Positions 46,345 to 60,890 of a DNA stretch of 64,000 nucleotides are shown here, piece by piece. Each line of letters opens with the position of its first letter. Position 1 is the stretch's first letter. Both the position numbers and the translations under genes were made by a program. The DNA is from Sulfitobacter sp. SK012. GTDB lineage: Bacteria > Pseudomonadota > Alphaproteobacteria > Rhodobacterales > Rhodobacteraceae. The DNA lies in contig NZ_CP025804.1 in the NCBI RefSeq assembly GCF_003352085.1, positions 372,001-436,000 on the forward strand. Reading direction: 5' to 3'. Under the pieces are notes generated by a model. That model did not search any database. It saw only the letters and a list, made by a program, of their open reading frames with translations, and was not told where the DNA came from.

Positions 46345-46352
46345 ATCGATCT

Positions 46353-46383
46353 AAAAATGGCCTCCAACGCGGGGCCATTTTTT
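46353..46383 (+). terminator. rho-independent terminator of ftsK
   Basis: Stem AAAAATGGCC / GGCCATTTTT with a ten-base loop, T run on the plus strand. The matching A run makes it usable in both directions. Confidence 0.85.
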
Positions 46384-46479
46384 CGCCTACTGAGCGTTTT
46401 TCTGCGCCGTGATATCGCATATCAAAGCATCACGCCTTATGTCTTGGTCAAGCAGATGAATAATCACAGGACCAATTTC

Positions 46480-47082
46480 ATGCGCCTTTTGAAGACTATG
46501 ACCCTGACCGCAGCCCTTGCGTTGGCTGCTTTGCCAGCTTTGGCGCAAAAATTGCCGTTGAGCGATATTTCGACTTACCTGAACGCAATGAAGACGGCGC
46601 AGGGTGATTTTACACAGATCAACGACGATGGCTCGATCAGCACGGGCACCATTTACATAAAACGCCCCGGCAAGGTGCGGTTTGAATACAACGCCCCGGA
46701 ATCTGGATTGGTGGTGGCGGCGAACAACACGGTTGTGATCGCTGATAAGAAGTCCAATCAACCAGCTGAAACCTACCCGCTGAACCGCACGCCGCTTTCG
46801 ATTATCTTGGCCAACAACGTCAACCTTGGACAGGCGCGTATGGTTACAGGGCATAATTTTGACGGGACTGCCACAACGGTCACAGCCCAAGATCCCGATC
46901 ATCCCGAGTATGGCAGTATCCAGATGAAGTTCACCGGCAGCCCGGTTGAGCTGCGTCAGTGGATCATCAATGATGGCAACGGATCACAGACCACCGTTGT
47001 TCTAGGTGACCTGGAAACGGGCGGAAACCTGTCAAACGCGCTCTTTGACACGAACAAGGTAGGCCGGCGCAGCGACCGCTAA
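46480..47082 (+). CDS. lolA: outer membrane lipoprotein chaperone LolA
   Basis: Periplasmic carrier of lipoproteins, 200 residues, with a signal peptide (about 1-22, ending in PALAQ). The LolA beta-sheet core is visible: LNAMKTAQGDFTQINDDGS, GTIYIKRPGKVRFEYN, and LRQWIINDGNGSQTTVVL. The start is the ATG of MRLLKTM after CACAGGACC; the frame runs upstream across the ftsK terminator, which is unsupported. ftsK-lolA is a common order in alphaproteobacteria. Confidence 0.93.
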   Translation: MRLLKTMTLTAALALAALPALAQKLPLSDISTYLNAMKTAQGDFTQINDDGSISTGTIYIKRPGKVRFEYNAPESGLVVAANNTVVIADKKSNQPAETYPLNRTPLSIILANNVNLGQARMVTGHNFDGTATTVTAQDPDHPEYGSIQMKFTGSPVELRQWIINDGNGSQTTVVLGDLETGGNLSNALFDTNKVGRRSDR

Positions 47083-47092
47083 AGTTTAGCGG
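47076..47092. other. palindrome containing both convergent stop codons
   Basis: CCGCTAAAGTTTAGCGG reads the same on both strands around a central base. It contains the lolA stop TAA and the stop of the opposing transglycosylase gene. No T run follows, so a termination role is only possible. Confidence 0.35.
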
Positions 47093-47676
47093 CGCAAACG
47101 GCGACAGCTTGATAGCTGACTTTGATAGAGATCGGATCGCTGATCGACCTTGTTTGCAACGCTCAAAAGCCAGCTCTTGGAGTTATAACTTTTGCGAGCA
47201 TAGCCTGTGTGCCCTTCGTGGTAGGCAAGGTACTGATTGCGTGCGTCCGTTAACGCGATGCCGTTTCGCTGTTGGCTGATGTTCATATACCAACCCATAA
47301 AATCGCTGGCATCGCGGATACGGTCACGTTTGGCCCTGTTGCGGTTTTCCGATTTGCGGTATTCATCCCACGTTGCATCCAACGCTTGACCGTAACCAAA
47401 CGCACTTGATTGCCGACCCATGGGGATTACGCCAAGTACGTATTTAAATGGCGTGCGTGCATCCGCAACGAATTTGCTCTCTTGATGGATCGTCGCCATC
47501 TGGACATGCACTGGCACGCCCCATTTCTTTTCCGTTGCACGGAATGCTTTGTAATAATCAGGGCGCTGTTTGAGAATCGAACAGGCGTTATCAAGCTCCC
47601 GAGGAGCCGAGCCTTGTCCGCCGCCGCAAGATGCGACGAGCAGAACGATAATCATAGCGCGAAGGGACTTGTTCAT
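47086..47676 (-). CDS. lipoprotein with lytic transglycosylase (SLT) domain
   Basis: A 196-residue lipoprotein. Lipobox VASCGG lies near residues 14-19 after a short signal sequence. The SLT-like domain has the catalytic Glu in MATIHQESKF, the SAFGYGQAL segment, and a conserved YLAYHEGHTGYARKSY near the end. It probably cleaves peptidoglycan in the periplasm. It converges on lolA. Confidence 0.88.
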   Translation of the reverse strand: MNKSLRAMIIVLLVASCGGGQGSAPRELDNACSILKQRPDYYKAFRATEKKWGVPVHVQMATIHQESKFVADARTPFKYVLGVIPMGRQSSAFGYGQALDATWDEYRKSENRNRAKRDRIRDASDFMGWYMNISQQRNGIALTDARNQYLAYHEGHTGYARKSYNSKSWLLSVANKVDQRSDLYQSQLSSCRRLRR

Positions 47677-47755
47677 CTGCCTATCGCCTCAATAGTAGTT
47701 TTTTATATTTTGACCGATAATAGCGCATAACTTGCGCGAGGTCACATCACAATTT

Positions 47756-48637
47756 TCACAAAACTGCTGCAAGAAGCAGCGGCAATGCGCCGACGGACAG
47801 CACCGTCGATACAACCACCAAACCTGCTACGGCCTGCGCATCCGCGCCGTATTTTTCTGCAAGCAGATAGGAGGTAACCGCGACGGGCGTGGCCAGTTGC
47901 AAAACGAGAACGCCAAATCCAATTCTGTCTAGGTCAAACAAATGGGCGGCACCCCACCCAACTGTGACACAAAGCACTAACTTGACGGCTGACAAAAGCA
48001 ACGCGCGCCCAATGCCGCCCGAGGACAATCGCGCCAAAGCGACTCCCAGCGTGATTAGCATCATGGGGATCGCCATTTGCCCCAAAAGCTTGAGTGTGTT
48101 GGTCGCAAACACCGGTGTCTGCCAGCCCTGCCACATAAACAATCCGCCCAGAAGGGTGGCCCAGATCAGTGGTTCACGCAGGGCTTTGCCAAAACTCCCA
48201 GTTCCGGCGACCAGCCAAATACCGAAGGTAAAACTCCAGATCACCATGACCGCGAAAACGACGACGGCATAGCTTAGGCCAACTTCGCCAAAGGCAAAGA
48301 GCGCCAGTGGCAATCCAAGGTTGCCAGTGTTGCCGAAGATGAGCGGGGCTAAATACGTTCGCCGGTCCAGCCCCACGCAAAAAACGAGCACGGCAGCGAG
48401 CACTGATACTGCGCCATAAGCGGCCAAACTTGCCAGCGAAAGAGCGGCCAAAGCGTCGGGGGTGATCTGCGTTTGCATTAATGAAACAAAAATCAAGCAG
48501 GGCACCGATAGGGTCATGGCCAGTTTGGTCACGAACTCGATGCGGTATTCGAAGCCAAATTTTACCCAGCAAAAACCAATACCTGCCAATAAAAAGACCG
48601 GGGCCACTATTTCTAAGACCAGCAGTGTCAAGTTCAC
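47756..48637 (-). CDS. AEC (auxin efflux carrier) family transporter
   Basis: A 293-residue membrane protein with about ten hydrophobic segments. The conserved family pattern occurs in the N-terminal half (FVTKLAMTLSVPCLIFVSL, FGNTGNLGLPLALFAFGE) and the C-terminal half (LQLATPVAVTSYLLAEKYG). The start appears to be GTG with AAAGGAAAC upstream. Substrate unknown; bacterial members transport malate and other anions. Confidence 0.9.
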   Translation of the reverse strand: MNLTLLVLEIVAPVFLLAGIGFCWVKFGFEYRIEFVTKLAMTLSVPCLIFVSLMQTQITPDALAALSLASLAAYGAVSVLAAVLVFCVGLDRRTYLAPLIFGNTGNLGLPLALFAFGEVGLSYAVVVFAVMVIWSFTFGIWLVAGTGSFGKALREPLIWATLLGGLFMWQGWQTPVFATNTLKLLGQMAIPMMLITLGVALARLSSGGIGRALLLSAVKLVLCVTVGWGAAHLFDLDRIGFGVLVLQLATPVAVTSYLLAEKYGADAQAVAGLVVVSTVLSVGALPLLLAAVL

Positions 48638-48718
48638 AGACTGTTTCCTTTGGGTTGCTGTCTATCGATGGACAAAATCCCCTTGTTTCGGCTAAGAACG
48701 AGGGGTAGGGGCTGCGGA

Positions 48719-49048
48719 ATGATGTTGAGAACACGAGCAAAATATCATCTGGGCCAAGTGGTCCGGCATAAAAAGCACCCTTTCAGAGGGGTGATTTTTG
48801 ACGTCGACCCCGAATTCGCGAATACCGAAGAATGGTATGAATCGATTCCCGAGGAAAGCCGCCCCATCAAAGGTCAGCCGTTTTACCATTTGTTGGCTGA
48901 AAACGATCAAAGCTACTACGTGGCCTATGTGTCTGAGCAAAATTTGATCGCGGATTACTCCGGAGAACCGGTGGATCATCCTGATATCCCCGATCTTTTT
49001 GGCCCCTTTACTGACGGGTCCTATCCGCTGCATTTCCAGCTGAATTGA
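48719..49048 (+). CDS. hspQ: heat shock protein HspQ
   Basis: A 109-residue protein of the YccV/HspQ type: KYHLGQVVRHKKHPFRGVIFDVDPEF near residues 8-33 and ENDQSYYVAYVSEQNL near 62-77. In E. coli HspQ adapts proteolysis by Lon and was first found as a DNA-binding protein (YccV). The start is the first of two adjacent ATGs after GGGG; the longer frame is unsupported. It converges on the gamma-glutamyltransferase gene, seven bases away. Confidence 0.92.
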   Translation: MMLRTRAKYHLGQVVRHKKHPFRGVIFDVDPEFANTEEWYESIPEESRPIKGQPFYHLLAENDQSYYVAYVSEQNLIADYSGEPVDHPDIPDLFGPFTDGSYPLHFQLN

Positions 49049-49055
49049 CGCGCGC

Positions 49056-50630
49056 TTAGTAGCCAAGGGCGCACCCGTCTTTTCGCGGATCGCTCGCGCC
49101 TTCAAGCACACCGCTGTCATGAATCTTGATCGCCTGCGCGCCACCAATGGGTGAGGCAGGCACTTGCACGTCGTGACCGATGTCAGACAGTTGTTGACGG
49201 ACCGCGTCGCTATAGCCGCGCTCTACCTTCAGGACACCCTCGTCGGAAAAGGCCCGAGGCGCATCAATTGCCGTCTGTGGGTCCATCCCGAAATCAACAA
49301 GATTTGACGCAAAGCGCGCGTGTCCACAGGGCTGATAGGCCCCTCCCATAACGCCAAATGGCATGATCACTTTGCCATTCTGGCGCACCATGCCGGGAAT
49401 GATTGTATGCATTGGACGCTTGCCGCCCTTAAGCTCGTTGGGGTGGCCTTCTTCAAGCGTAAACCCAGCACCGCGGTTTTGGAGCAAGATTCCAAATTTG
49501 TTTGAGGCGATCCCAGACCCAAAACCCTTATAAATCGAATAGATCAACGACACAGACATACCGTCGCGATCTACGACGGTGATATAAATCGTGTCTTTGT
49601 GCACCGTCTCTGAGAGTGCGGCTGGCGCATCCATCGCGCGCTTTGGATCGATAAGACCGGCAAGTGCGCGCGCGGTGTCCATACTCAGCATATGCTCGGT
49701 ACGGGTCATATAATCTGCATCTGTAACGAACCGGTTGCGGGCGTCATAGGCTAGTTTCGACGCCTCCGCCTCAATGTGCACACGTTCACTGCCCAGAGGG
49801 TCCATCGCTGCGCAATCGAACTGCGCCAGAATATTCAACATCAGCAACGCAGTGGCACCCTGACCGTTGGGCGGATGCTCGACGACATCAATATCTTTGT
49901 AGCTCGCACTGATCGGATCGGCAGCAGTACAGGCCGTATCCGCAAAATCTTGGGCCGTGTGAGTGCCGCCTAGCTGCGCAAGCGTGGCAATCATATCATC
50001 GGCCACCTCACCGCTATAGAACGCATCGCGGCCGTGCTTTGCGACGCGGCGCAGTACTTCGGCTTGACCGGGCGCGCGGAAAATAGCCCCGGTCGTCAAT
50101 GCTTTGCCGCCGTTCGAATAGTACTCGATTGCTTTGCCTTGTAGATTTTCGAGGTCAGAGGTCCAATCGAATGCAACCCGTGGCGCGACCGGCACGCCAG
50201 CATCAGCGTAGTGAATCGCAGGTGCGAGCAAAACGTCGAGACCTAGTTTACCGACGCTATCTGCCAAATGACAAAACGCATCCATCGAGCCCGGAATTGT
50301 CACTGCATGGGCGCTGAACGCGGGAACCTCGGTTTCACCAGCAGCACGCAATTGCTGCGCGTTTTGCTGTGCGGGGGCACGTCCAGATCCGTTCAACGCG
50401 TGCACTGGGCCGTCTGCTTTGGACCAAAGGACAAAACAGTCCCCACCGATTCCTGTCATCTGTGGTTCACATATCCCCAACAGCACAGCGCCCGCTATAG
50501 CTGCATCCATGGCGTTACCGCCTTTTTCGAGAATATCGACCGCAGTTTTGGCCGCCAATGGATGCGATGTGGCGCACATGCCGTTGGTGGAAAATACGGC
50601 TGATCGGCCAGTTTGGTGAAAGTCACGCAT
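49056..50630 (-). CDS. gamma-glutamyltransferase family protein
   Basis: A 524-residue Ntn-hydrolase precursor. The N-terminal part has GMCATSHPLAAKTAVDIL and GNAMDAAIAGAVLLGICEPQ with TGIGGDCF. The expected self-cleavage threonine starts the DTIYITVVDRDG segment near residue 345, followed by GMSVSLIYSIYKGFGSGI. The C-terminal motif PFGVMGGAYQPCGHA is as in other members of this branch. There is no signal peptide, so it is probably cytoplasmic, like related YwrD proteins; a glutathione substrate is not assured. Confidence 0.9.
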   Translation of the reverse strand: MRDFHQTGRSAVFSTNGMCATSHPLAAKTAVDILEKGGNAMDAAIAGAVLLGICEPQMTGIGGDCFVLWSKADGPVHALNGSGRAPAQQNAQQLRAAGETEVPAFSAHAVTIPGSMDAFCHLADSVGKLGLDVLLAPAIHYADAGVPVAPRVAFDWTSDLENLQGKAIEYYSNGGKALTTGAIFRAPGQAEVLRRVAKHGRDAFYSGEVADDMIATLAQLGGTHTAQDFADTACTAADPISASYKDIDVVEHPPNGQGATALLMLNILAQFDCAAMDPLGSERVHIEAEASKLAYDARNRFVTDADYMTRTEHMLSMDTARALAGLIDPKRAMDAPAALSETVHKDTIYITVVDRDGMSVSLIYSIYKGFGSGIASNKFGILLQNRGAGFTLEEGHPNELKGGKRPMHTIIPGMVRQNGKVIMPFGVMGGAYQPCGHARFASNLVDFGMDPQTAIDAPRAFSDEGVLKVERGYSDAVRQQLSDIGHDVQVPASPIGGAQAIKIHDSGVLEGASDPRKDGCALGY

Positions 50631-50937
50631 GTCAAAAAACCCAGTTCAAACAAATGTTGAACGGGAACGTAGACCGATTGATCGGGGGTCACAATGTGCG
50701 GAAAATAAGTGCCTCGGCGCCACGTACTGGGTGGGGGCTATAAAACATGACGCCGAGGGAAGCTATATGCAGCTACAGATCCCACAATGCCCTCGAAGAG
50801 TGGCAAGAATGTGATCTGGATTGGGCGGTTCAAAGGAAATTCCCGGTTATTTTCAGGACAATTCCGTCACCGCTTTCATGTGAAACGACCCCGAGCTTGA
50901 GGTTTTTTGGGAATGAAAATCGAGTGGAGTGCTGAAG
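50631..50937. other. intergenic region without supported gene
   Basis: About 300 bases between the gamma-glutamyltransferase gene start and the RsbW-like gene stop. It should hold the promoter of the former. A few short open frames occur but none has a ribosome site or recognisable content. Confidence 0.5.
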
Positions 50938-51387
50938 TTAATGAATGCCGACGGCCAGCCTGAGATTGAGCAGGTTGGCATTTCCAACACGTTGGTATTT
51001 CACGTCTTTTGCAAGGTCTTGAATGATGAACCATCCAAACCCACCTTCAGGAAGGTCCATGAAATCACCCGTCAAATCAGCAGCCACACCTAGGGGCGCA
51101 TGCCCCTCAGGCATGGCAACGCCACGATCTTCGATCCGAAAATGCAATCCGTTCTTTTTGTGCAAACATCGTATCAGAACCGGCCCGACGCCTTGTTGTG
51201 GCGCATAGGCATGTTCGACAATATTGTTGAGCGCTTCAGCGAGGACCAATTCTACTGTGCCGGCCTCTTCGATGTCCAAATCCAAAGGACCAAGTCCGTC
51301 CAATACTTTTCTTAGTGCTTCGCGTATGGCGATTTCGCTGCTGTGTACGCGCACGGCAAACGGCTCAAGGGCTCGTTTTGCAAACAT
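50938..51387 (-). CDS. RsbW-like anti-sigma factor (HATPase_c serine kinase)
   Basis: A 149-residue GHKL-ATPase domain protein. The N box is ELVLAEALNNIVEHAY, the G1 box reads FRIEDRGVAMP, and GGFGWFIIQDL forms the G2 region, so this is the serine-kinase anti-sigma type (RsbW/RsbT) that binds a partner-switching STAS protein. The start is the ATG of MFAKRALEPF with GAGGAGAG five bases upstream. That site lies in a 13-base repeat which also occurs 5.7 kb away next to a STAS gene on the same strand; see the island entry. Confidence 0.9.
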   Translation of the reverse strand: MFAKRALEPFAVRVHSSEIAIREALRKVLDGLGPLDLDIEEAGTVELVLAEALNNIVEHAYAPQQGVGPVLIRCLHKKNGLHFRIEDRGVAMPEGHAPLGVAADLTGDFMDLPEGGFGWFIIQDLAKDVKYQRVGNANLLNLRLAVGIH

Positions 51388-51392
51388 CGTTT

Positions 51393-51405
51393 CTCTCCTC
51401 GGCAC
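51393..51405. repeat. left 13-bp direct repeat (putative att site)
   Basis: CTCTCCTCGGCAC; on the minus strand GTGCCGAGGAGAG, which includes the ribosome binding site of the RsbW-like gene. It is identical to 57093-57105. Confidence 0.8.
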
Positions 51406-51484
51406 AAAATTTCTCCCTAATATTTCTATCAAGTAACTTATTTTGATATATTTAATTATTTCTTGAGCTGGTAATGCTGAGAAA

Positions 51485-51511
51485 TTGTAACACAATTTGT
51501 AGCACATTTTG
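51485..51511 (+). repeat. TTGTAxCACA iterated motif, left end of island
   Basis: Two tandem copies (TTGTAACACA, TTGTAGCACA) in 27 bases. A matching pair (CTGTATCACA, TTGTATCACA) lies at 56965-56991. Both lie 80-100 bases inside the 13-bp repeats, where integrase arm-type sites would be expected. Confidence 0.45.
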
Positions 51512-51644
51512 GGTTTTAGAAGTGTTGCTCAAGCCTCACATGGCAAGCGAAAAGTAGGTTCTAGAAATGCCCCGAACGGCCGTTTTATGGAACGAATCCC
51601 GCAAGCTTGTCCTCCTTACGGACTCTAAATATTTCAGAGGTTAC

Positions 51645-52026
51645 TTAGGATTGGCTGGCTAGCAGGCCAAATAGGAAATCGTGAAAATCGATGAGTTCTT
51701 CTGTGAAGGAAGAGTCAACGACCATAATTGTCATTAGCTTACGCTGAGTATGCTCTTTTGACATCGAGGCCACGCTAGTGAGAGACGTGATGAAGGGAAA
51801 CATATTCTGAACATAAGAACCCGTCGAATGATTGTGGAACTGTAACAACGGATGTCCGGAGAGTTTCTCCGATGTGCTGGAGATCCGCTAAGTCCGCTGA
51901 CCGACGATTGAGCCAACAAAATGCTGCACGATGCGCGAATGACTGGCCTGGCAAAGCTGTGTTGCAGCGCTGGATGGGCCGGCCAAGCTTCGCAAACTGG
52001 GCACCAGAAAATGAGGAAACTGACAC
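51645..52026 (-). pseudogene. unknown protein, apparently frameshifted
   Basis: Two overlapping minus-strand frames join well in sequence flow. The first starts with GTG at 52026 (VSVSSFSGAQFAKL) and runs through AAFCWLNRRSADLADLQHIGETLR; the second continues LQFHNHSTGSYVQNMFPF and ends DFLFGLLASQS at 51645. A single base change of frame near 51850 would fuse them to about 127 residues. I do not recognise the protein, and the frameshift is only inferred. Confidence 0.3.
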
Positions 52027-52110
52027 CTAAAATAGGGGGTTTGGAAATTGGTTACCAAACCCAAGAAATTGTTTTCTTTTGGATGAGGTAATGGTGGTAG
52101 CCCCTGAGTT

Positions 52111-52228
52111 TTAGGTTTCGACTGGTGTCGGTGTGAAGCCCAAATATTTGGCTGGATCGCTGTCAGTTAACCACACGCTATTGTCCGCACAATAGAACTA
52201 GTGGCCTTCATCACACATTGGCTGTGTG
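52111..52228 (-). pseudogene. possible 3' fragment of RNA 2'-phosphotransferase (KptA/Tpt1)
   Basis: Minus-strand reading gives MCDEGH, a TAG, then FYCADNSVWLTDSDPAKYL and a TAA. The pattern M-x-x-x-G-x-x-F-Y-x-x-x-N-x-V-W-L-T resembles the C-terminal end of KptA/Tpt1, which removes 2'-phosphates from RNA. Only about 38 codons are left and they contain an in-frame TAG, so it is not functional. The call is tentative. Confidence 0.3.
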
Positions 52229-52231
52229 GCA

Positions 52232-52370
52232 ATGCCAGCCGAGAAGATCGTCAAAGATATCAAACGCGCTATGCGCATGCACTACTCATCCTAAGAGCAG
52301 ATCAGGCCGCCGCTTGGACGGCGTTAGTGGCGAAACCAACATTGCTTAGCTGTGTCGTCGTGAGTTTCAG
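52232..52370 (+). pseudogene. IS3-family transposase OrfA remnant
   Basis: Starts as MPAEKIVKDIKRAMRMHYSS, then TAA; in a shifted frame RRLDGVSGETNIA, TAG, LCRREFQ follow. These match the usual OrfA start (IxKDIxRAxRKHxSAEEKIRxVLxG...IAELCRREG). Two stops and a frameshift show that it is decayed. Confidence 0.6.
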
Positions 52371-52482
52371 GTAGGGTCAATGGCGCGGCGTATGTCATGC
52401 TGCGCCACCCGCTTGGGCGGCATTTTGCCAAGCCAAAATCCGCTTATTGAAGCTGCTAAAATGTACCGCTAATTTGATCTAT

Positions 52483-52617
52483 ATGAGCATTGACCCAAAT
52501 CCAAAAAAACCATCCTTTTCATTTTTGGAAGGAGCATTGATGGCATTTGCACTACTGCTGGCCTTCCTATGCTTCATAGCAGCTGGTGCTGTTCTGTTCG
52601 ACGTTTTTATTGGCTGA
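52483..52617 (+). CDS. small membrane protein, 44 residues, perhaps frameshifted
   Basis: MSIDPNPKKPSFSFLEGALM followed by a strong transmembrane segment (about 21-40). An internal ATG at 52540 has a perfect GGAAGGAG site and would give 25 residues. In the +1 frame after the T run near 52608 the sequence continues YWLNHHAPGVLSLVVGAFCYVV, which looks like a second membrane segment. A lost T may therefore have shortened a two-helix protein of about 75 residues. Function unknown. Confidence 0.4.
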   Translation: MSIDPNPKKPSFSFLEGALMAFALLLAFLCFIAAGAVLFDVFIG

Positions 52618-52783
52618 ACCATCACGCGCCCGGTGTGCTTTCTTTGGTCGTAGGCGCTTTTTGTTATGTGGTTACAATCAAGTTTTCCCGACCCAAGCCC
52701 AGTTGTCGTCCAAGTTTGTGCAGGAAACCGCTATGGCGCGCGAATAGCAGTCGCTGGTGTAAGGTGCAGCGATGCTCGTCGCG

Positions 52784-52981
52784 TTAGGTGGCACCTGTTC
52801 CAGAGTAGCTTGCTGCCTTCATCATGATTTGAGCCATGGTGTCCATTTGGCTATTTCGTTCCGAAATTTCTTTTTCTAAACGTTTGTAGATCGGAAGATA
52901 GACTGTCCCATCCGGACGAGTACTGATGGCGAATGCCAAGTATTCCATATTTTTTTCAAGCTGCTCAATGGTTATTCCCAT
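52784..52981 (-). CDS. hypothetical protein, 65 residues
   Basis: MGITIEQLEKNMEYLAFAIS, then a charged helical region (IYKRLEKEISERN) and a short tail. An AGGTAAGA site precedes the ATG. It reads like a real soluble small protein. No family recognised. It lies just left of the IS256 element, whose target repeat starts 34 bases beyond its start codon. Confidence 0.5.
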   Translation of the reverse strand: MGITIEQLEKNMEYLAFAISTRPDGTVYLPIYKRLEKEISERNSQMDTMAQIMMKAASYSGTGAT

Positions 52982-53021
52982 TGAATATCTTACCTGTTTT
53001 TATGTCCTTTCGTTTTTCCAG

Positions 53022-54408
53022 GAGCTATGACTGAATCTGGTGTTTGGGGGATTTGAAGGTTGGCGGCGTATCTGGTTGATTTGTTGTTGCGAGACAGCAG
53101 CCCAACCGAAGGAGATACACCACCATGGAAACGACTAACATTGTTGATTTTTCGCGTCGAGACGGGATCACGGACGCGCTGACGGATTTATTGAGAACAG
53201 GAGCGCAGCAATTGATCGCAACAGCCGTTGAAGCTGAGCTTGAAAGCTATCTGTCTCAGTTTACCACCGCGCGCACTGAGGCCGGTCATGCGACTGTTGT
53301 GCGCAATGGGCATCATCCCGAGCGCCCGTTCCAAACGGGCATCGGCCCCGTGAACGTGCGCATTCCCAAGGTTCGCTCAAAAAACGGCCAGCCCGTGACA
53401 TTCCATTCGGCCCTGGTGCCACCGTACGTGCGCAGAACCAAAACGTTGGAAGCGGCCTTGCCATGGCTGTATCTGAAGGGCATCTCCAGCGGTGAAATGG
53501 GCTCGGCTCTCAAGGTTCTTCTGGGCCCTGATGCGGCGGGATTGTCGGCAAATACGGTCTCACGGCTCAAGCGCGATTGGGCCAACGAATACGGCGAGTG
53601 GAGAAAGGCAGCGTTGGACGATGAGCCCTTGGTCTACATCTGGGCTGACGGTGTCCACAGCGGCCTTCGGGGCGAGGATGACAAGCTCTGCGCCCTTGTG
53701 ATTGTGGGGGTAACAGCCCGTGGCAAGAAGCGGTTCTTGGCTATTGAGGACGGGGTGCGCGAGTCCACGCAGAGCTGGCGCGAGGCTCTCCTCAGCCTCA
53801 AAAGCCGGGGAATGAACGCCCCGAAACTTGCTATTGGAGATGGTGCCATGGGGTTCTGGGCCGCCATAGATGAAGTCTATCCTGAGACCCGTCATCAACG
53901 CTGTTGGCAACACAAAACTATGAATGTGCTCAACTGTTTGCCCAAGCTGTCTCAGCCAAAGGCCAAAGCTGCGATCCACAACATCTGGCAGGCTGAGACC
54001 AAAGATGATGCGGGCAAGGCCTTAGATTTGTTCATCAAAACCTACGAACCCAAATACCCCAAGGCGACGCTGTGCCTGCAAAAGGACCGCGAGGAACTCA
54101 TGGCATTCTTCGACTTTCCAGCACAACACTGGCAAAGCATCCGCACCAGTAATCCAATTGAATCCGCCTTTGCCACGATCCGTCATCGCACCAAACGATC
54201 AAAGGGCTGCCTCTCACGCGACGGCATGCTGCACATGATGTTCAAGCTGGGGCAATGCGCCGAGCAAAACTGGAGGAAACTACGCGGCTTTGACTACCTC
54301 GCCAAAGTCATCACCGGCGTCGCATTCAAAGACGGAATTGAAGCCACTGAAAACAGCCAGATCGCCGCATGACCAGAAACCCTTAAACACCAGATTTGAC
54401 AATAACTC
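53022..54408 (+). mobile_element. complete IS256-family insertion sequence
   Basis: 1387 bp with imperfect terminal inverted repeats: left GAGCTATGACTGAATCTGGT and right (reverse complement) GAGTTATTGTCAAATCTGGT, continuing GTTT..GGG. The sequence TTTCCAG directly precedes the left end (53015-53021) and directly follows the right end (54409-54415), a target duplication of at least seven bases. One full transposase gene is inside. Confidence 0.88.
53125..54372 (+). CDS. IS256 family transposase
   Basis: A 415-residue DDE transposase of the mutator type. Catalytic acids are Asp in YIWADGVHSG, Asp in LAIGDGAMGFWAAI and Glu in SNPIESAFATIRHRT. The N-terminal DNA-binding part has DALTDLLRTGAQQLI and ELESYLSQF; RNGHHPERPFQTGIGPV is typical. 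The ATG has an AAGGAG site. The gene is uninterrupted, so the element may be active. Confidence 0.96.
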   Translation: METTNIVDFSRRDGITDALTDLLRTGAQQLIATAVEAELESYLSQFTTARTEAGHATVVRNGHHPERPFQTGIGPVNVRIPKVRSKNGQPVTFHSALVPPYVRRTKTLEAALPWLYLKGISSGEMGSALKVLLGPDAAGLSANTVSRLKRDWANEYGEWRKAALDDEPLVYIWADGVHSGLRGEDDKLCALVIVGVTARGKKRFLAIEDGVRESTQSWREALLSLKSRGMNAPKLAIGDGAMGFWAAIDEVYPETRHQRCWQHKTMNVLNCLPKLSQPKAKAAIHNIWQAETKDDAGKALDLFIKTYEPKYPKATLCLQKDREELMAFFDFPAQHWQSIRTSNPIESAFATIRHRTKRSKGCLSRDGMLHMMFKLGQCAEQNWRKLRGFDYLAKVITGVAFKDGIEATENSQIAA

Positions 54409-54658
54409 TTTCCAGACGCTGGTTAATCTGATGTTAATAAATTTGTGAATCCTAGTGTTGGGTTTCCTGTTTTACCGTGCTGACAGACGGTGTCTGGCTG
54501 ACCGGCAAGGTTTCCATAGTTTATTTGGGTGTTGGATCGGTTCAGTCAAAAACGAAAAATTAGTGTTTCCCACCATTACGTCATCCAAAAGAAAGAAAAT
54601 TCTGAAGTTAGGTAAAAAAATTCGCATGCTGTTCTAAGGGGTTTTTGACATTCACTAG

Positions 54659-54814
54659 GGTCTAGACTCTTTTGAGATTTTAGGAACCTGTCAAAAAGCA
54701 GCGCGAGAGGCTGGCGCGAGCGAAGCGGATATTCGTAACTTCATGACGAAAGCCATGGAAGGTAATCAAGAGCATCTGTTGAGTGTTGTTGTGCAAAATT
54801 TTGAACTTGAGTGA
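54659..54814 (+). pseudogene. C-terminal fragment of an unknown protein
   Basis: A frame with no start codon at its beginning reads GLDSFEILGTCQKAAREAGA and NFMTKAMEGNQEHLLSVVV and ends in TGA. Its helix-like composition suggests a coding remnant. No family recognised. Confidence 0.25.
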
Positions 54815-55271
54815 CCAGACTGACCTTCCTAGCGCCCCCAGTTTGCATCTTGATCTAAGCTTTCGGCAACTGCAATTGCCGTAAATTTGCGAGAGTTCTG
54901 ATCATCTCCTGTGAGCGCCTCAGGCCGCCTCGCTGTTGGAAGTCTTGTGCGATCAGATCATAGTCATCCTCAAAAAGCGGCATGAACCTTGGGCCGACAT
55001 TTCGCTCGCAAGCATATGGGCAAGTGAATTTGCCCGATTTCTGCACCATGCACATGTTGGCAACAAGGGCGGAGAGCCGCCATTCGCTGCGCCCGCAAAC
55101 TAAATTGGGCGACTTGGAGAAAGCGGACGCTCGGGGCTGCAACCCGGTTTTTTCGATGTGCAAACGCAGCTAACGGCGGCAGTTAGCCCATTTCACCAAA
55201 TCTCTGCACTACAGCGAATGACCGCAACCACAGAAGATCAGTATTCCGCACAACCAGTGAATGGACCAAGA
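54815..55271. other. region without supported gene
   Basis: Frames exist on both strands (for example 54855-55163 minus and 54982-55173 plus), but none has a ribosome site or recognisable content. I see no clear repeat or RNA gene in it. Confidence 0.4.
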
Positions 55272-55499
55272 TCAAAACAATGCACCGATTTCTTCGACAG
55301 TTAACACCTTGCCTGCCGAGACAAGCTTTTCGTCGATGATTAGACCCGGTGTGGACATCACACCATAGCCCGCTATCTCAGCGAAATCCGTAACTTTGAC
55401 GATTTCGAATTCATTTCCCACCGCCTCAGCCGCAGCTTTTGCATTGTTGCCAAGTGCCACGCATTTCTTGCAGCCCGAACCAAGAATTTTGATAATCAT
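55272..55499 (-). CDS. small thioredoxin (redox-active disulfide protein 2 type)
   Basis: A 75-residue thioredoxin fold of the TM0996/MTH895 group. The redox pair is in LGSGCKKCVALGNN (CxxC at residues 10-13), and the cis-Pro is in VMSTPGLIIDEKLVSAG. These short proteins are usually encoded beside permeases of the DUF318/YraQ class, as here with the truncated permease 12 bases away. They may supply electrons for metalloid or sulfur handling; arsenic resistance is one known context. Confidence 0.88.
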   Translation of the reverse strand: MIIKILGSGCKKCVALGNNAKAAAEAVGNEFEIVKVTDFAEIAGYGVMSTPGLIIDEKLVSAGKVLTVEEIGALF

Positions 55500-55511
55500 T
55501 TCGTTTCCCTT

Positions 55512-55936
55512 TCAGATGAACCAATCTGTAATTGCGTTGAAGAGAAAGCCGATCCCGAGAATTCCACCGGTTACGACTGTCAGGAAAAGTAACAAAAGTG
55601 GCAGTTTCACCACGCGTTTGAGCATGATGATTGACGGCAGTGACAGTGCGGTCACGGCCATCATGAATGCCAATACAGTGCCCAATCCGACGCCCTTGCC
55701 GATCAAAGCTTCGGCAATTGGCAGCGTTCCAAAGATGTCCGCATACATGGGCACACCAATCAGTGTTGCGACGGGTACGGACCACCACTTATCTTGCCCC
55801 AATAGCGTACTAATGATGGCCTCTGGAACCCAGTTGTGGATCGCCGCGCCAATTCCCACACCAATCAAAACATAGAGCCAAACGCGGTGCATTATCTCGG
55901 ATACCTGATCGCGGGCATAGCGCAGGCGCTCGGCCC
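55512..55936 (-). pseudogene. permease (YraQ/DUF318 type), C-terminal half only
   Basis: About 140 codons of a membrane protein, from RAERLRYARDQVSEIMHRVW to FLFNAITDWFI, with four to five hydrophobic segments and the family pattern IGVPMYADIFGTLPIAEALI and MAVTALSLPSIIMLKRV. Family members have about 300-350 residues. The 5' part is missing exactly where the IS6 element begins, so the gene was cut by that element. It precedes the small thioredoxin gene as in intact systems elsewhere. Confidence 0.8.
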
Positions 55937-56764
55937 GGTTCTGTCGCAAATTTGGATTGGGAACGGATCACTCGTATTGCCGGACATAGTTATCCAGCGA
56001 GTGCCTCGAATTGTTGGAATGCAGATTGGCCAGAGAGGTCGAATTGCCGTTTGCGGATCATGTGCGCAACTTCGAGGCCTTCCAGAGTTGCAGAAGCTGA
56101 TCTGAAGGACTTGAAGCCCTTCATTTGTCGTGTCAGCTTCTTGATGAACCTGTGGTCCTGTTCAATGATGTTGTTGAGATATTTGACCTGAAGGAATTCA
56201 ATCAGCCAGTACCACCCGTTCAAAATCAGCAGGCAGTTCATGTTCTGTAGCCCGGCGAGATTCGCCCCGCTTTTGTCGATGACCACTCTGTCAGGGAAAC
56301 CGTTGTTTCCGATTGCGCGCGTGAAGAATGCGGTTGCGGCTGCTTCATCACGATGCTCCGATAGCATGAAATCAAGGGTTTTGCCGAACTTGTCGATGGC
56401 TCGGTAATAATACGTCCACTTGCCTTTCACCTTGATGTAAGTCTCGTCCATCCGCCAGGAAACGGCTGTCGGTCGCTTCTTGGCCTGGGCGTTTGTGGCG
56501 ATCAGCGGCGAATATTTCACGACCCAGCGGTTCAGGGTCGCGTGATCAACGGCCACACCACGCTCCGCTAAAATCTCTTCCAGATCGCGATATGACACGG
56601 CATACCGGACGTAGAAAAACACTGCGTGGACGATCACAGCTTTTGGATAATGCGCGCCTTTAAAATCAACCATCGTTTCGCCCGTTTCCTTTGCTTCGTC
56701 CGAGGGAAAACCAGTGCTACATTTCCATCTCAGAAAAAAGACCCGAATACTTTGCGACAGAGCC
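55937..56764 (-). mobile_element. complete IS6-family insertion sequence
   Basis: 828 bp with 14-bp terminal inverted repeats: GGTTCTGTCGCAAA at the left and, read on the other strand, GGCTCTGTCGCAAA at the right (one mismatch). The flanking eight bases differ (CTCGGCCC and GCCTTTCA), so there is no target duplication. Both neighbours are truncated at the ends of the element, which fits replicative deletion or recombination between two copies. Confidence 0.88.
55990..56673 (-). CDS. IS6 family transposase
   Basis: A 227-residue DDE transposase: Asp in WRMDETYIKVKG, Asp in VIDKSGANLAGL and Glu in YLNNIIEQDHRFIK. The N-terminal AVFFYVRYAVSYRDLEEIL and LNRWVVKYSP are typical of the IS26 group. 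Uninterrupted, so potentially active. Confidence 0.95.
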   Translation of the reverse strand: MVDFKGAHYPKAVIVHAVFFYVRYAVSYRDLEEILAERGVAVDHATLNRWVVKYSPLIATNAQAKKRPTAVSWRMDETYIKVKGKWTYYYRAIDKFGKTLDFMLSEHRDEAAATAFFTRAIGNNGFPDRVVIDKSGANLAGLQNMNCLLILNGWYWLIEFLQVKYLNNIIEQDHRFIKKLTRQMKGFKSFRSASATLEGLEVAHMIRKRQFDLSGQSAFQQFEALAG

Positions 56765-56948
56765 GCCTTTCAGCTTCCAGTTCATCCAAAACTTGATGCT
56801 TCACCAGAGCTGCTCTTGTCTCAGCTTGGGCCTTACTATCCGTTTCTAATGAACGACAGATATAGTCCTTGCCCCAAGTTTCGCGGTATCGCTTTGGACA
56901 CCTCATTCTGAACCAGTAGACGTTGCCACGTAGTAAAATATGTTTCAT
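56765..56948 (-). pseudogene. tyrosine integrase, N-terminal fragment
   Basis: About 61 native residues: LLRGNVYWFRMRCPKRYRET, YICRSLETDSKAQAETRAAL. This matches the N-terminal region of phage/island integrases (RGxxYxFRxxxPxxxR...SLxTxxxxxAxxRA). The catalytic domain is missing; the frame runs into the IS6 inverted repeat and ends there. An AGGTG site precedes the ATG. It lies about 145 bases from the right 13-bp repeat, as expected for an integrase beside its attachment site. Confidence 0.75.
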
Positions 56949-56964
56949 CGGAACACCTGATAGT

Positions 56965-56991
56965 CTGTATCACATTTTGTATCACATCGTG
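56965..56991 (+). repeat. TTGTAxCACA iterated motif, right end of island
   Basis: CTGTATCACA followed by TTGTATCACA; the counterpart of the copies at 51485-51511. It lies upstream of the integrase start and about 100 bases from the right 13-bp repeat. Confidence 0.45.
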
Positions 56992-57092
56992 CTCCCTAAG
57001 CTTGAGGGCCATTGTTCTAGCATCGATGATTTTGTGAATAGCATCAGTGGCTTCTGTAGTGGTTAAGGACTCGTTAACGAATCAAGAGGTCC

Positions 57093-57105
57093 CTCTCCTC
57101 GGCAC
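57093..57105. repeat. right 13-bp direct repeat (putative att site)
   Basis: CTCTCCTCGGCAC, identical to 51393-51405. It lies eleven bases beyond the STAS gene stop. Confidence 0.8.
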
Positions 57106-57116
57106 GGCACATTCAA

Positions 57117-57452
57117 TCATCGCAGCGCGATCAGGGCTTTTTCGATGGTCGGAAATAGGCTGAACACTGAATCCATCCGAGTCAGCTTGAATACTTTGTC
57201 TACTGTGGGAGTTAGCCCAGCCAGCACCAGCTTTCGCGCCGGAGCCAAATGTTTCATCGAGGCGACTATCGCACCAAGCCCGCTCGAATCGATAAAGGAC
57301 ACATGGTTGAGGTCCAGCACAACTGTTTCATCCTCACCTTCCGTGATCGCGCGCATTTTGTCTTTGAAATCAAGCGCAACCGCAGCATCAATGCGCTGTT
57401 CCTGCACTGTTACAATCTGCAGGCCGGGTTCTTTTGAACTAGTAAGTTCCAT
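57117..57452 (-). CDS. STAS domain anti-sigma factor antagonist (RsbV-like)
   Basis: A 111-residue STAS protein. The phosphorylatable serine is in VSFIDSSGLGAIVASM, and the region before it (ETVVLDLN) and after it (RKLVLAGLTPTVDKVFKLT) fits RsbV/SpoIIAA. It would be the partner of the RsbW-like kinase now found 5.7 kb downstream on the same strand. The start is the ATG of MELTSSKEP. The thiolase gene starts divergently 84 bases away. Confidence 0.93.
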   Translation of the reverse strand: MELTSSKEPGLQIVTVQEQRIDAAVALDFKDKMRAITEGEDETVVLDLNHVSFIDSSGLGAIVASMKHLAPARKLVLAGLTPTVDKVFKLTRMDSVFSLFPTIEKALIALR

Positions 57453-57536
57453 GATAGGCAATCTCGCGTTGGGATGGCGTAGTGATATGCTAAAATCCTT
57501 ACCAAGTGATGAGCATCTGTTAGCGGGGGAATAGGC

Positions 57537-58709
57537 ATGAAAAAGGTAGTAATTGCAGGAGCGGCAAGAACCCCTATGGGCGGGTTCCAAGGTGCATTTG
57601 CAGATATGACTGCAGCGGACCTCGGCGGTGCTGCTATTCGCGCAGCACTTGCGGACGCAGGCACGTCAACCGCGCAAGAGGTTCTGATGGGCTGTGTTTT
57701 GCCAGCAGGCCAAGGCCAGGCACCCGCACGGCAAGCCGGATTTAAGGCGGGTCTTGGCGAAGATGTGCCTGCAACGACGTTAAACAAGATGTGTGGTTCT
57801 GGCATGAAGGCTGCGATGATTGGCTTTGACCAAATTGCACTTGGCCAAACGGATGTGATGATTGCGGGCGGTATGGAAAGCATGACAAACGCGCCTTACG
57901 TGCTCCCCAAGATGCGCGGTGGTGCGCGTTTGGGTCATAGTCAGGTTATCGATCATATGTTTCTTGATGGGTTAGAAGATGCCTATGACAAGGGTCGCTT
58001 AATGGGGACTTTTGCCGAAGATTGCGCCGAGACCTATCAATTCACCCGCGCCACGCAGGATGACTATGCATTGGCGTCGCTCAGCCGCGCGTTGGAGGCT
58101 CAAAAGAGCGGTGCGTTCGACGGCGAAGTTGCCCCCGTCGAAGTTATCTCTCGTAAGGGCACCGCGACCATTAGCACTGACGAACAGCCCGCATCTGCAC
58201 GCCCCGACAAAATTCCACAGCTCAAACCTGCGTTCCGCGAGGGGGGCACTGTTACGGCGGCCAACTCCTCGTCCATATCAGATGGCGCAGCAGCGCTGGT
58301 ACTTGCCTCAGAAGATGCAGCGCAGGCCCAGGGCCTTAAGATTCGGGCGCATATCATCGGCCACGCGAGCCACGCGCAGGCACCAGGTCTCTTCACTACG
58401 GCCCCAGTTCCTGCGGCGCAAAAACTGCTACAGAACATTGGTTGGCGTAAAGAAGACGTTGATCTTTGGGAGGTTAACGAGGCCTTTGCCGTGGTCCCGC
58501 TGGCCTTCATGCACGAGATGGGCCTCAGCCACGACATTGTTAACGTAAACGGCGGTGCCTGTGCGCTTGGTCATCCAATTGGGGCATCTGGCGCGCGAAT
58601 CATGGTTACCCTGCTGAATGCTTTGGAAAAGCGTGGCTTCAAAAAGGGGATCGCCGCGATTTGCATCGGCGGCGGCGAAGGAACTGCGATTGCGATTGAA
58701 CGCATCTGA
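57537..58709 (+). CDS. acetyl-CoA acetyltransferase (thiolase)
   Basis: A 390-residue thiolase. The nucleophilic cysteine is in LNKMCGSGMKA near residue 86, the catalytic His in EVNEAFAVVPLAF, and the second Cys loop reads VNGGACALGHPIGASGARI, which is complete though it continues CIGGGEGTAIA at the end. Biosynthetic (PhaA-like) or degradative role cannot be told apart here; no phaB or phaC gene is in the window. Confidence 0.94.
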   Translation: MKKVVIAGAARTPMGGFQGAFADMTAADLGGAAIRAALADAGTSTAQEVLMGCVLPAGQGQAPARQAGFKAGLGEDVPATTLNKMCGSGMKAAMIGFDQIALGQTDVMIAGGMESMTNAPYVLPKMRGGARLGHSQVIDHMFLDGLEDAYDKGRLMGTFAEDCAETYQFTRATQDDYALASLSRALEAQKSGAFDGEVAPVEVISRKGTATISTDEQPASARPDKIPQLKPAFREGGTVTAANSSSISDGAAALVLASEDAAQAQGLKIRAHIIGHASHAQAPGLFTTAPVPAAQKLLQNIGWRKEDVDLWEVNEAFAVVPLAFMHEMGLSHDIVNVNGGACALGHPIGASGARIMVTLLNALEKRGFKKGIAAICIGGGEGTAIAIERI

Positions 58710-58779
58710 TTTCTTTTGACCGTACACTCGTGGGGGCGATGACAACTCCACCCTCCCGCTGGCACAGGCACAGACAAAC

Positions 58780-59238
58780 ATGACCGTAGATTACTTAACG
58801 CTCGCTAAAACCGTTGCTGCACTGACCGCAGATGAGACAGATCCGATTGCTCTTATGGCTACAATCGCCTGCGAGGTTCATCATTTTGATGACCGCTTTG
58901 ATTGGACTGGATTTTACCGCGTGACCGGACCTGAGCTGCTTAAAATTGGGCCTTACCAAGGTGGTCATGGCTGTTTGGTGATCCCCTTCTCTCGCGGTGT
59001 TTGCGGGGCTGCAGCGCGTACCGGCCAAACCCAGCTGGTGTCGGATGTCGACCTATTTGAAGGCCACATCGCCTGCGCCACCTCCACTCGGTCCGAGCTT
59101 GTGTTGCCCGTCTATAATGGCGCGGGTATTTTGCTTGGCGTATTTGACATCGACAGCAATCAGCCCAATGCTTTTTCCCAAGAGGATGCGGGTGCGTTGG
59201 AAGATATTCTCAAAGTTAGTTTTGCTGCTGTGAAATAA
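58780..59238 (+). CDS. free methionine-(R)-sulfoxide reductase (GAF domain)
   Basis: A 152-residue stand-alone GAF domain. The pattern WTGFYRV, GCLVIPFSRGVCGAAARTG, HIACATSTRSELVLPV and GVFDIDSNQPNAFS matches the fRMsr family; the three cysteines needed for catalysis and resolution are present (GC, VCG, ACA). It reduces free methionine-R-sulfoxide. It lies before the betaine-type operon, which handles homocysteine and methionine. Confidence 0.9.
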   Translation: MTVDYLTLAKTVAALTADETDPIALMATIACEVHHFDDRFDWTGFYRVTGPELLKIGPYQGGHGCLVIPFSRGVCGAAARTGQTQLVSDVDLFEGHIACATSTRSELVLPVYNGAGILLGVFDIDSNQPNAFSQEDAGALEDILKVSFAAVK

Positions 59239-59268
59239 CGCTGGATTTTTTCACCAGCTTGTTGCACC

Positions 59269-59293
59269 GTGAAATTACACGCTGAAATTTCAC
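59269..59293. promoter_or_regulatory. inverted repeat, likely operator of the XRE-cupin regulator
   Basis: Perfect eight-base arms GTGAAATT (59269-59276) and AATTTCAC (59286-59293) with a nine-base spacer, ten bases before the regulator's start codon. The core TGAAATT occurs twice as a direct repeat (59270 and 59283) and a related TGAAATA lies at 59231. Position suggests autoregulation. Confidence 0.5.
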
Positions 59294-59302
59294 GGACCCG
59301 CC

Positions 59303-59875
59303 ATGCACCACGACCAGCCAGAAAAACCGCACACCCTTGGGGCGGATCTGCGCGCGCTGCGCAAGGCGCGTGGTTTGACATTGAGCACGATGGCTCAGGC
59401 TCTAGATTGCTCGGTCGGCTGGCTTAGCCAAGTGGAGCGGGACAAGTCGGAACCGTCCATCACCACCCTCCGCCAAATCGCGGCTCTGCTTGATATTTCA
59501 GTCTCGATGCTATTCCGCCACTCGGCAGCGCCCGCCGAAGAGGCTGGATATGTGGTCCGCAAAGATGCCCGTCGTCCGATAGGATCCTCCACCGCGGGTC
59601 TGGTCGAAGAACTGCTTTCGCCTGATCTGACGGATGACTTTGAGATGGTGCACTCCACTTTCTTGCCTCACAGCCGGATAAAGGTGCCAGTGTCGCGCCC
59701 CACGCAAGAGGTCGGTTATGTAGTCTCAGGCACGCTCGACATCGAGATTGCTGGCAAAACGCATCACCTGAACCCCGGCGACAGTTTTCGTGTAAGAGGT
59801 GAGGCGTTTCTTTGGGCCAATCCTTCGGATCAACCAGCTGTGGCGATCTGGGTGATCGCCCCTCCCGTTTATTGA
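59303..59875 (+). CDS. XRE-family regulator with C-terminal cupin domain
   Basis: A 190-residue regulator. The helix-turn-helix lies at about 10-65 (LGADLRALRKARGLTLSTMA, VGWLSQVERDKSEPSITTLR), and the cupin domain at about 110-188 has GYVVSGTLDIEIAGKTHHLNPGDSF. This architecture (PuuR-like) is common in regulators of amine, amino acid and osmolyte catabolism; the cupin binds a small ligand. It is followed by LysE, GFA and the FAD enzyme on the same strand with tiny gaps, so it probably controls them. Confidence 0.93.
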   Translation: MHHDQPEKPHTLGADLRALRKARGLTLSTMAQALDCSVGWLSQVERDKSEPSITTLRQIAALLDISVSMLFRHSAAPAEEAGYVVRKDARRPIGSSTAGLVEELLSPDLTDDFEMVHSTFLPHSRIKVPVSRPTQEVGYVVSGTLDIEIAGKTHHLNPGDSFRVRGEAFLWANPSDQPAVAIWVIAPPVY

Positions 59876-59884
59876 GGGGCGACG

Positions 59885-60505
59885 ATGAGTTTTGACGCCT
59901 GGATCATTTTCGCGCTTTTTTGGCTGATTTTTGTCACCACGCCGGGGCCGAATGCCGTGAACTGCATCACCAATGGAATGACCCTGGGTTTTCGTCGCGC
60001 CATGGTGGGTGTATTGGCGATCTTAACTCAGGCGACTCTCTTTCTTGCGCTCTCAGCGCTTGGCGTAACCGCCTTGATCGCGGCCTCTCCAGTCGCGTTC
60101 ACGGTCGCCAAATTGATCGGTGCTGGTTTCCTCGTCTATCTCGGTGTGCGCGGCTGGTTTAAGGCCAAAACACCTGTCGTCATCGATAGCCGTCCAGCGT
60201 CCTCCGTTTACTTTCGCGCATTTGCCATCGCCACGATTAACCCCAAATCCGTCGCTGGCTACCTCGCAGCGTTCTCACAATTTGTGCAGCCGGATGTCCC
60301 AATCTGGACGCAGATGATTGTCATCGTGCCCACAGCGCTCACGTTGACGGCGCTCAACTACACTGGGTTTACCGCGCTGGGCGCAGGCATTGGACGCGCT
60401 GCACTTGGGGCTGTCTTTAACGTTTGGGTTCGGCGTGTCATGGCGGTTTGTTTTATCATCTACGGCGTGCTTTTGGGTGCGACAACAACACCGGGAAGGG
60501 TTTGA
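59885..60505 (+). CDS. LysE family translocator
   Basis: A 206-residue membrane protein with about six hydrophobic segments. The family start FALFWLIFVTTPGPNAVNCI and the GAGFLVYLGVRGWF segment are typical. It exports amino acids or similar small molecules. It begins nine bases after the regulator and ends one base before the GFA gene. Within this operon it might export an amino acid intermediate such as glycine or sarcosine; that is inference. Confidence 0.9.
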   Translation: MSFDAWIIFALFWLIFVTTPGPNAVNCITNGMTLGFRRAMVGVLAILTQATLFLALSALGVTALIAASPVAFTVAKLIGAGFLVYLGVRGWFKAKTPVVIDSRPASSVYFRAFAIATINPKSVAGYLAAFSQFVQPDVPIWTQMIVIVPTALTLTALNYTGFTALGAGIGRAALGAVFNVWVRRVMAVCFIIYGVLLGATTTPGRV

Positions 60506-60506
60506 T

Positions 60507-60890
60507 ATGTTGCAAGGAAGCTGCCTCTGCGGCGCGATCACATTTTCAGCCATGGGCCCTGCGCGCGATCCTGCCGCCTGCCATTGCAGTCAGTGCCGCA
60601 AGCAATCGGGCCACCACTGGGCATCGGTACAGGTCATGGACGACACGCTCGCCATTGCTGGCGCTCCAACATGGTACGCGTCGAGCGAAAGCGCAAAGCG
60701 CGGCTTTTGCCCGAAATGCGGTTCATTCTTGTTCTGGAAGGGCAAAGGCGATCCGGATACGGGCGTTGCCCTAGGCGCGCTGGACGGGCCCACGGGACTC
60801 CGGCTTGAGCGTCATATATTCACCGCCGATAAAGGCGATTACTACGAAATTACCGACAACGTCTCTCAGGAGGAAAAAGAAGATGAGTGA
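60507..60890 (+). CDS. GFA-fold zinc protein (glutathione-dependent formaldehyde-activating family)
   Basis: A 127-residue protein with the CENP-V/GFA zinc pattern: GSCLCG at about 4-9, CHCSQCRKQSG at about 27-37, and CPKCGS near 72-77. The family name comes from Gfa, which was thought to condense formaldehyde with glutathione. The start is the ATG of MLQGSC; the start of the next gene lies inside its last codons. A link to formaldehyde released by demethylation of methylated amines is possible but unproven. Confidence 0.9.
   Translation: MLQGSCLCGAITFSAMGPARDPAACHCSQCRKQSGHHWASVQVMDDTLAIAGAPTWYASSESAKRGFCPKCGSFLFWKGKGDPDTGVALGALDGPTGLRLERHIFTADKGDYYEITDNVSQEEKEDE

Follow-up and report, generated by a model that had tools for sequence, protein, structure and literature searches.

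How did two genes that lie side by side in related bacteria come to be separated by 5.7 kb in Sulfitobacter sp. SK012? The genes code for a STAS-domain protein and an RsbW-like kinase, and the segment between them is bounded by two copies of a 13-bp sequence, CTCTCCTCGGCAC, which an original prediction made from this DNA had placed at 51393 and 57093, where they are indeed present. The locus was studied in a 64-kb stretch (the window) of the 5.18 Mb genome of the strain, and coordinates are positions in that window. The segment 51406-57105 is very probably the remnant of a genomic island, an integrative element of the tyrosine-integrase kind, an estimate that refers to its origin only. Integrase-mediated integration is well supported, and the island is a defunct representative of an established class of element, found in an unusual location. 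The features on which this conclusion rests are the following:

50938..51387, minus strand: gene of an RsbW/RbaW-like kinase, 149 residues, frame open and intact (HATPase_c_2, PF13581, 3.4e-20)
51393..51405, minus strand: attachment (att) core copy on the kinase side, containing the GAGGAG ribosome-binding site of the kinase gene
51486..51506, plus strand: arm-type tandem pair TGTAACACA/TGTAGCACA, 12-bp period, 80 bp inside the left core
56765..56948, minus strand: N-terminus of a DUF6538 tyrosine integrase, 61 codons, truncated by an insertion sequence (IS) of the IS6 family (PF20172, 9.4e-11)
56966..56986, plus strand: arm-type tandem pair TGTATCACA/TGTATCACA, 12-bp period, 106 bp inside the right core
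57093..57105, minus strand: att core copy on the STAS side
57117..57452, minus strand: RsbV/RbaV-like STAS gene, 111 residues (PF01740, 9.7e-18), with serines at residues 56-57 (FIDSSG)

The STAS-kinase pair and the 13-bp repeat

The domain matches agree with the gene identities given in the original prediction; the RsbW models match the kinase far under their cut-offs. Only two exact copies of the 13-mer exist in the whole genome, both of them at the STAS-kinase pair, and no third copy with at most one mismatch was detected in the window. In a window scan allowing one mismatch, two or more copies were obtained in 1 of 100 shuffles (0.07 expected). The core overlaps no tRNA gene. It coincides with the Shine-Dalgarno region of the kinase gene, whose start lies 5 nt past it, and the idea that the repeat is a ribosome site which the kinase has kept is borne out to that extent. 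When the flanks were joined through a single core copy, the STAS stop codon (TGA) was followed by 24 nt, a further 5 nt and the ATG of the kinase, that is, by the 29-nt gap that had been predicted.

To place this gap, STAS-kinase loci of other genomes were read. Readable were 108 of 109 loci: 29/29 from the genus set and 79/80 from the genome_contigs set, the latter representing the best 80 of 328 relatives. In the one unreadable genome_contigs locus the contig ends 191 bases upstream of the match. Some genomes occur in both sets, and the 108 loci are therefore partly non-independent. A kinase match was found in 32 other genomes of the genus set, three of which had no locus and were left out; the adjacency counts rest on the kinase matches, loci found by STAS match (59/62 genomes) being set aside. 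The STAS gene directly precedes the kinase gene in 108/108 readable loci, as had been anticipated, and the gap between them, extrapolated to the residue aligned with kinase residue 1, is 3-47 nt with a median of 27, a range that includes the 29 nt of the collapsed SK012 locus. Both outer neighbours, a divergent thiolase gene before the STAS gene and a gamma-glutamyltransferase gene after the kinase gene, are retained in 60/80 genome_contigs loci. Since the two genes are linked in relatives that have no island, the island represents an insertion that parted two closely spaced genes; among the genomes seen it is peculiar to this lineage.

Another possibility, that the 13-mer serves as att site in many genomes, was rejected: of the 295 genomes searched, 15 besides SK012 contain it, at 17 loci, none of which (0/17) has a tRNA gene or lies beside STAS or RsbW genes.

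The integrase fragment, its arm-type repeats and related elements

The original prediction did not include two components of the island, the integrase fragment and the arm pairs. The DUF6538 match is in a 72-residue open reading frame (ORF), 56730-56948, which consists of 61 integrase codons followed by IS6 sequence. The integrase start is 144 nt from the right core and 17 nt from the right arm pair. The host gene before the integrase, here the STAS gene, is on the integrase strand, as in the tRNA-borne cases described below. A functional mobile element would have a complete integrase; here 61 codons are left, no other integrase pieces were found genome-wide with a related integrase (that of G309, see below) as query at an E value of 1e-3, and the fragment had no match in plasmids or viral contigs. 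Two more DUF6538 matches, one of them below cut-off, are present in the SK012 genome (C1:1053643 and C1:3101222) and may mark other islands.

The arm pairs first surfaced in the repeat search as a resemblance between 14-mers of the two island ends. Their tandem pattern, TGTnnCACA-3-TGTnnCACA, is found exactly twice in the window and also in the genome, once inside each core, and the reversed pattern, used as control, has 0 occurrences in the genome. A core with arm sites on its inner side and an integrase gene next to them is the attL/attR anatomy of lambda-type integrases.

The same anatomy was found around full-length integrases. Among 345 genomes of the family, the best other match to the integrase fragment is in Sulfitobacter sabulilitoris (genome G309, locus L051). 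The element of this species (G309:C1 about 93335-106958, equal to L200:5336-18959; 13.6 kb) is at a tRNA-Thr gene: a 15-bp core occurs twice, 13.6 kb apart, and one copy overlaps the end of that gene. Its arm pairs lie 65 and 111 bp inside the cores and 13.4 kb from each other, and its 479-residue integrase starts 5 nt from the right arm pair, in the same orientation as in SK012. In a second element with both ends resolved (14.7 kb, genome G198) the 23-bp core is at tRNA-Leu, the arms lie 58 and 60 bp from the cores on their inner side, and a 511-residue integrase is beside the arms. The order core-arm-integrase...arm-core is common to these two elements and the SK012 island. The S. sabulilitoris element shares with the SK012 island a DUF6538 integrase at the same end and on the same strand relative to the arms, paired TGTnnCACA arms, direct-repeat cores and a similar small ORF; it differs in having a full-length integrase, a cargo that includes a type I restriction HsdR gene and a tRNA target, whereas the SK012 island is broken and lies between protein genes. 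All four integrases found beside such arms (4/4) match DUF6538 and 3/4 also match Phage_integrase, two of these below cut-off. Of 10 arm-bearing regions, 8 were scanned for tRNA genes, and in 6/8 a tRNA gene was located 57-99 bp from an arm motif; for genome G307 this distance refers to a single motif and not to the tandem pair.

The comparison was extended to 36 DUF6538 loci (L051-L056 and L167-L196), 30 of which were taken one per genome, SK012 included, and six picked for likeness to the fragment; some are near duplicates. In 24/36 loci, that of SK012 among them, the 130 bp before the DUF6538 match contain a 9-mer repeated, with no more than one mismatch, at a 12- or 13-bp period. In controls, 200 rounds of shuffling gave an average of 0.98 of 36 and a maximum of 6, segments taken 300-1100 bp further upstream at these loci gave 6/180, and regions near STAS gene starts gave 2/74. 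The upstream tandem repeats in 24/36 loci suggest that DUF6538 binds the arm sites of integrases, and the domain may thus be their arm-site DNA-binding domain. The comparison offers a candidate function for a domain labelled unknown, with DUF6538 as the predicted arm-site reader of island integrases; a literature search, in which subscription journals were thinly covered, found no paper pairing DUF6538 with an integrase. A same-strand tRNA gene precedes the DUF6538 match by no more than 190 bp in 17/36 loci and is absent there in 19/36; in G309 the tRNA gene is at the far end. The tRNA end is a common target of DUF6538 integrases.

Contents and origin of the island

That the 5.7 kb between the repeats are a degraded island, as predicted, is confirmed by what they contain: a transposase of the IS256 family at full length, one copy of IS6, a remnant resembling IS3, and truncated versions of an ArsP permease and of the integrase. 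Besides the features given above, the following were identified:

52240..52364: IS3-like remnant, 72-78% identical to DNA of 7 Rhodobacterales plasmids, with an IS3 family transposase annotated in 3
52784..52981, minus strand: 65-residue ORF, 37% identical over 46 residues to a 63-residue ORF beside the integrase of the S. sabulilitoris element
53034..54396 (approximate ends), plus strand: IS256-family insertion sequence, inverted repeat 53034-53053/54377-54396
53125-54372, plus strand: IS256-family transposase ORF (Transposase_mut 2.4e-61, NF033543 4.6e-90)
55272..55499, minus strand: ArsE-like thioredoxin-fold protein (TIGR00412 3.1e-25, PF13192 8.5e-25)
55512..55936, minus strand: C-terminal part of an ArsP_1 permease, truncated by IS6 (PF03773, match to profile positions 166-292 of 294)
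55937..56764, minus strand: IS6-family insertion sequence with inverted ends, transposase 55990-56673 (NF033587 2e-72)

Ten proteins were scanned with Pfam and ten with NCBIfam, covering part of the island ORFs. In the database search the 65-residue ORF matched solely the window's own protein. The permease-thioredoxin pair (55272-55936) is 73.7% identical to a plasmid pair of Rhodobacter sp. CZR27, and it is the plasmid match to the island part 54400-55936; plasmid matches to 51406-53030 are one IS3-like piece and one 50-base match. Elsewhere in the genome the IS6 copy has 8 further matches, which are 72-87% identical and lie exclusively on contig C2. No RNA families were found in 46000-64000, and terminators showed no excess over chance. 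An imperfect 81-nt inverted repeat (52044-52124/54543-54623, 75% complementary) surrounds the IS256 copy and possibly represents the ends of a decayed element.

According to the explanation that we favour, a DUF6538-type tyrosine integrase would have bound the core together with the tandem TGTnnCACA arms that lie inside both ends, and would have recombined the 13-bp core of the element with an identical 13 bp, GTGCCGAGGAGAG, of the STAS-kinase spacer. Integration would have duplicated the core, and because the duplicated core contains it, the kinase would have kept its own ribosome-binding site, along with its start codon. The insertion sequences would have entered later, IS6 truncating the integrase; this truncation would leave the element without an integrase of its own and probably fixed in place. 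We infer that recombination took place at exactly these 13 bp. A tRNA-directed integrase may have used this location as a secondary site; alternatively, the integrase may have possessed a specificity of its own. No other occupied STAS-kinase site, as a hotspot would provide, was seen among the 108 readable loci, which leans towards the secondary site.

The insertion sequences inside the island (the IS6 and IS256 copies and the IS3-like remnant) could point to a transposon or composite IS whose target-site duplication is the 13-bp repeat. However, neither the IS6 copy nor the IS256 copy, with the coordinates listed above, has an end at either 13-bp copy, and such an origin would account neither for the arm pairs nor for the integrase start. 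The IS6 and IS256 families generate target duplications of 8-9 bp, as against 13 bp here, and the 8-bp flanks of the IS6 copy differ, that is, there is no target duplication. A composite-transposon origin was rejected on the lack of IS ends at the repeats and of a target duplication at IS6, and transposition in general appears extremely improbable. A coincidental repeat, the island having come otherwise and having its true ends elsewhere, would fit the fact that maximal direct repeats of at least 13 bp number 50 in the window, which makes a bare 13-bp repeat unremarkable, and that the 13-mer is missing from the spacers of the relatives. Against coincidence, a 13-mer was shared in just 2/20000 random order-1 pairs whose composition matched the 120 bp before the kinase gene and the 129 bp after the STAS gene; the core-arm distances of 80 and 106 bp are similar to those in other elements, where arms lie 57-111 bp from the core or tRNA end; and the collapsed gap is of the length usual in relatives. 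We therefore regard a chance repeat as very unlikely. The island could also be what is left of a larger prophage or conjugative element, most of which was lost by IS-mediated deletion. This would be compatible with the favoured explanation: the integrase and the ArsP gene each end at the IS6 copy, which has no target duplication, as after IS6-mediated deletion, and both related elements with resolved ends are larger. But no phage structural or conjugation family was recognized among the ten Pfam-scanned and ten NCBIfam-scanned proteins, and a larger ancestor, although possible, seems to us rather unlikely.

Several observations weigh against integration by such an integrase at this 13-bp site. 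A single copy of the 13-mer in relatives had been set beforehand as a test of the original prediction, and it failed: the 13-mer is present in 0/108 spacers, none of them conspecific, and the spacers resemble it no better than by chance (mean best match 6.9/13, chance 7.0; best 9/13, in locus L057). No genome was found with the exact 13-bp site unoccupied. Of the integrase only the N-terminal 61 codons remain, so that its recombinase domain is presumed, and identity of the fragment to the S. sabulilitoris integrase is 36%. The tandem pattern occurs in 24/394 genomes of the family and the reversed control in 5/394; paired cores were seen in 2/10 arm-bearing regions, the other 8 being single-ended or extending beyond the sequence read. 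There is no tRNA gene in the whole window, whereas the two related elements resolved at both ends are each located at a tRNA gene. Lastly, mobilisation in trans is possible given the two further DUF6538 matches in the genome. For an island of this kind, an identical core at the empty site of a relative would be supporting and not defining evidence, and calls for a near relative. The lack of the 13-mer may reflect drift in so short a spacer, given that the nearest kinases found are 64-66% identical, that of L057 being the closest (66%).

The island can be compared with described ones. Genomic islands of Sinorhizobium meliloti (PMC11476347) are likewise alphaproteobacterial, carry an integrase gene and are flanked by direct repeats, of 12-98 bp for islands in tRNA genes; unlike the SK012 island, 54/54 of those in Table 1 are in tRNA genes and none in protein-coding or other regions. 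Island SGI1 at its secondary site sodB-purR (PMC2297512) is an integrase-borne island between two protein genes as well. That site is downstream of sodB and 208 bp upstream of purR, with the purR promoter-operator predicted to be unaffected, whereas the SK012 island interrupts a unit of two genes, and does so at a ribosome-binding site. Among the matches listed in the literature search, none has a title about an island at a STAS-rsbW pair, and the words anti-sigma, rsbW and STAS are absent from a paper on prophages of the family (PMC8224337). The SK012 locus presents, at base level, a case in which an island appears to have entered a compact gene pair and spared both genes, with the downstream ribosome-binding site as core.

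Possible consequences for Rba-type regulation

The original prediction had suggested that stress signalling through partner switching may be altered. The pathway is more aptly described as Rba-type, going by the traits reported for Rhodobacter capsulatus. Judged by the published description (PMC3999984) and not by sequence, the SK012 pair of a STAS and a HATPase protein is like RbaV/RbaW of the RbaV/RbaW/RbaY system: two serines are at STAS residues 56-57 in both, and the phosphatase gene is elsewhere in the genome. The single SpoIIE-domain match in the SK012 genome is a 427-residue protein with a receiver domain. The arrangement differs in that rbaW overlaps rbaV in R. capsulatus, whereas 5.7 kb lie between the genes here. 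According to the same source, the Rba proteins are tied to gene transfer agent (GTA) production, stationary-phase survival and colony form, and RcGTA gene transfer was 2.85-fold higher when rbaW was lost. The GTA phenotype was restored by rbaV and rbaW together in trans and not by rbaW alone, a pattern that its authors read as a possible sign of translational coupling. In Dinoroseobacter shibae, the rise in expression of the homologous pair starts together with that of part of the GTA cluster (PMC6473078). One protein of the SK012 genome matches GTA_TIM (1.1e-153).

The kinase gene is likely to be cut off from its original promoter, and we infer that co-transcription and translational coupling with the STAS gene have been lost. 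No minus-strand ORF of at least 60 residues ends within 250 nt upstream of the kinase gene, which means that no gene of that size replaces the STAS gene as coupling partner. Reduced or altered RbaW expression is plausible on these grounds. That RbaW has fallen relative to RbaV, with a shift in Rba-controlled traits, which in R. capsulatus include GTA output, we give slightly less than an even chance. The chances are evenly balanced for the insertion being regulatory noise, a promoter inside the element or read-through serving the kinase and the level of RbaW being unchanged. The kinase frame is intact and, with no excess divergence in four of six bins (see below), the gene is probably still in use; one promoter-like match (9 of 12) in the left end, 51483-51455, is directed at it. 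On the other hand, promoter-like matches in the region are not above those in shuffles (4 vs 5.3 expected), and the overlap of the R. capsulatus genes and their joint requirement in trans (PMC3999984) speak against an unaffected RbaW level. Coupled expression of RbaV and RbaW is thought to matter for GTA control, and the strain provides a natural experiment on an Rba-type switch, which in R. capsulatus affects how much DNA leaves the cells in virus-like particles.

A more far-reaching possibility, which we consider doubtful, is that SK012 is a natural rbaV/rbaW uncoupling mutant. An integrase from a group often aimed at tRNA ends would have used the RbaW ribosome-binding site, leaving RbaW translatable but unbalanced with RbaV and GTA output raised, and DUF6538 would be the arm-type binding domain of a large integrase group recognizing TGTnnCACA-like repeats with a 12-13 bp period. 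If this were true, one DNA-transfer vehicle would have changed the control of another.

Faster evolution of the kinase was considered as well, and it is not clear: with relatives binned by STAS identity, divergence of the kinase is not raised in four of six bins. The closest STAS protein is that of locus L024 (80%), but the L024 kinase is 51% identical, and in other pairs at a STAS identity of 75-82% kinase identity averages 60%. In the two bins of highest STAS identity the SK012 kinase is less alike than in other pairs by 8 and 14 points (50.3 vs 58.0%, n=4, and 46.4 vs 60.3%, n=2), which may reflect relaxed constraint, a discordant history or recombination between the two genes.

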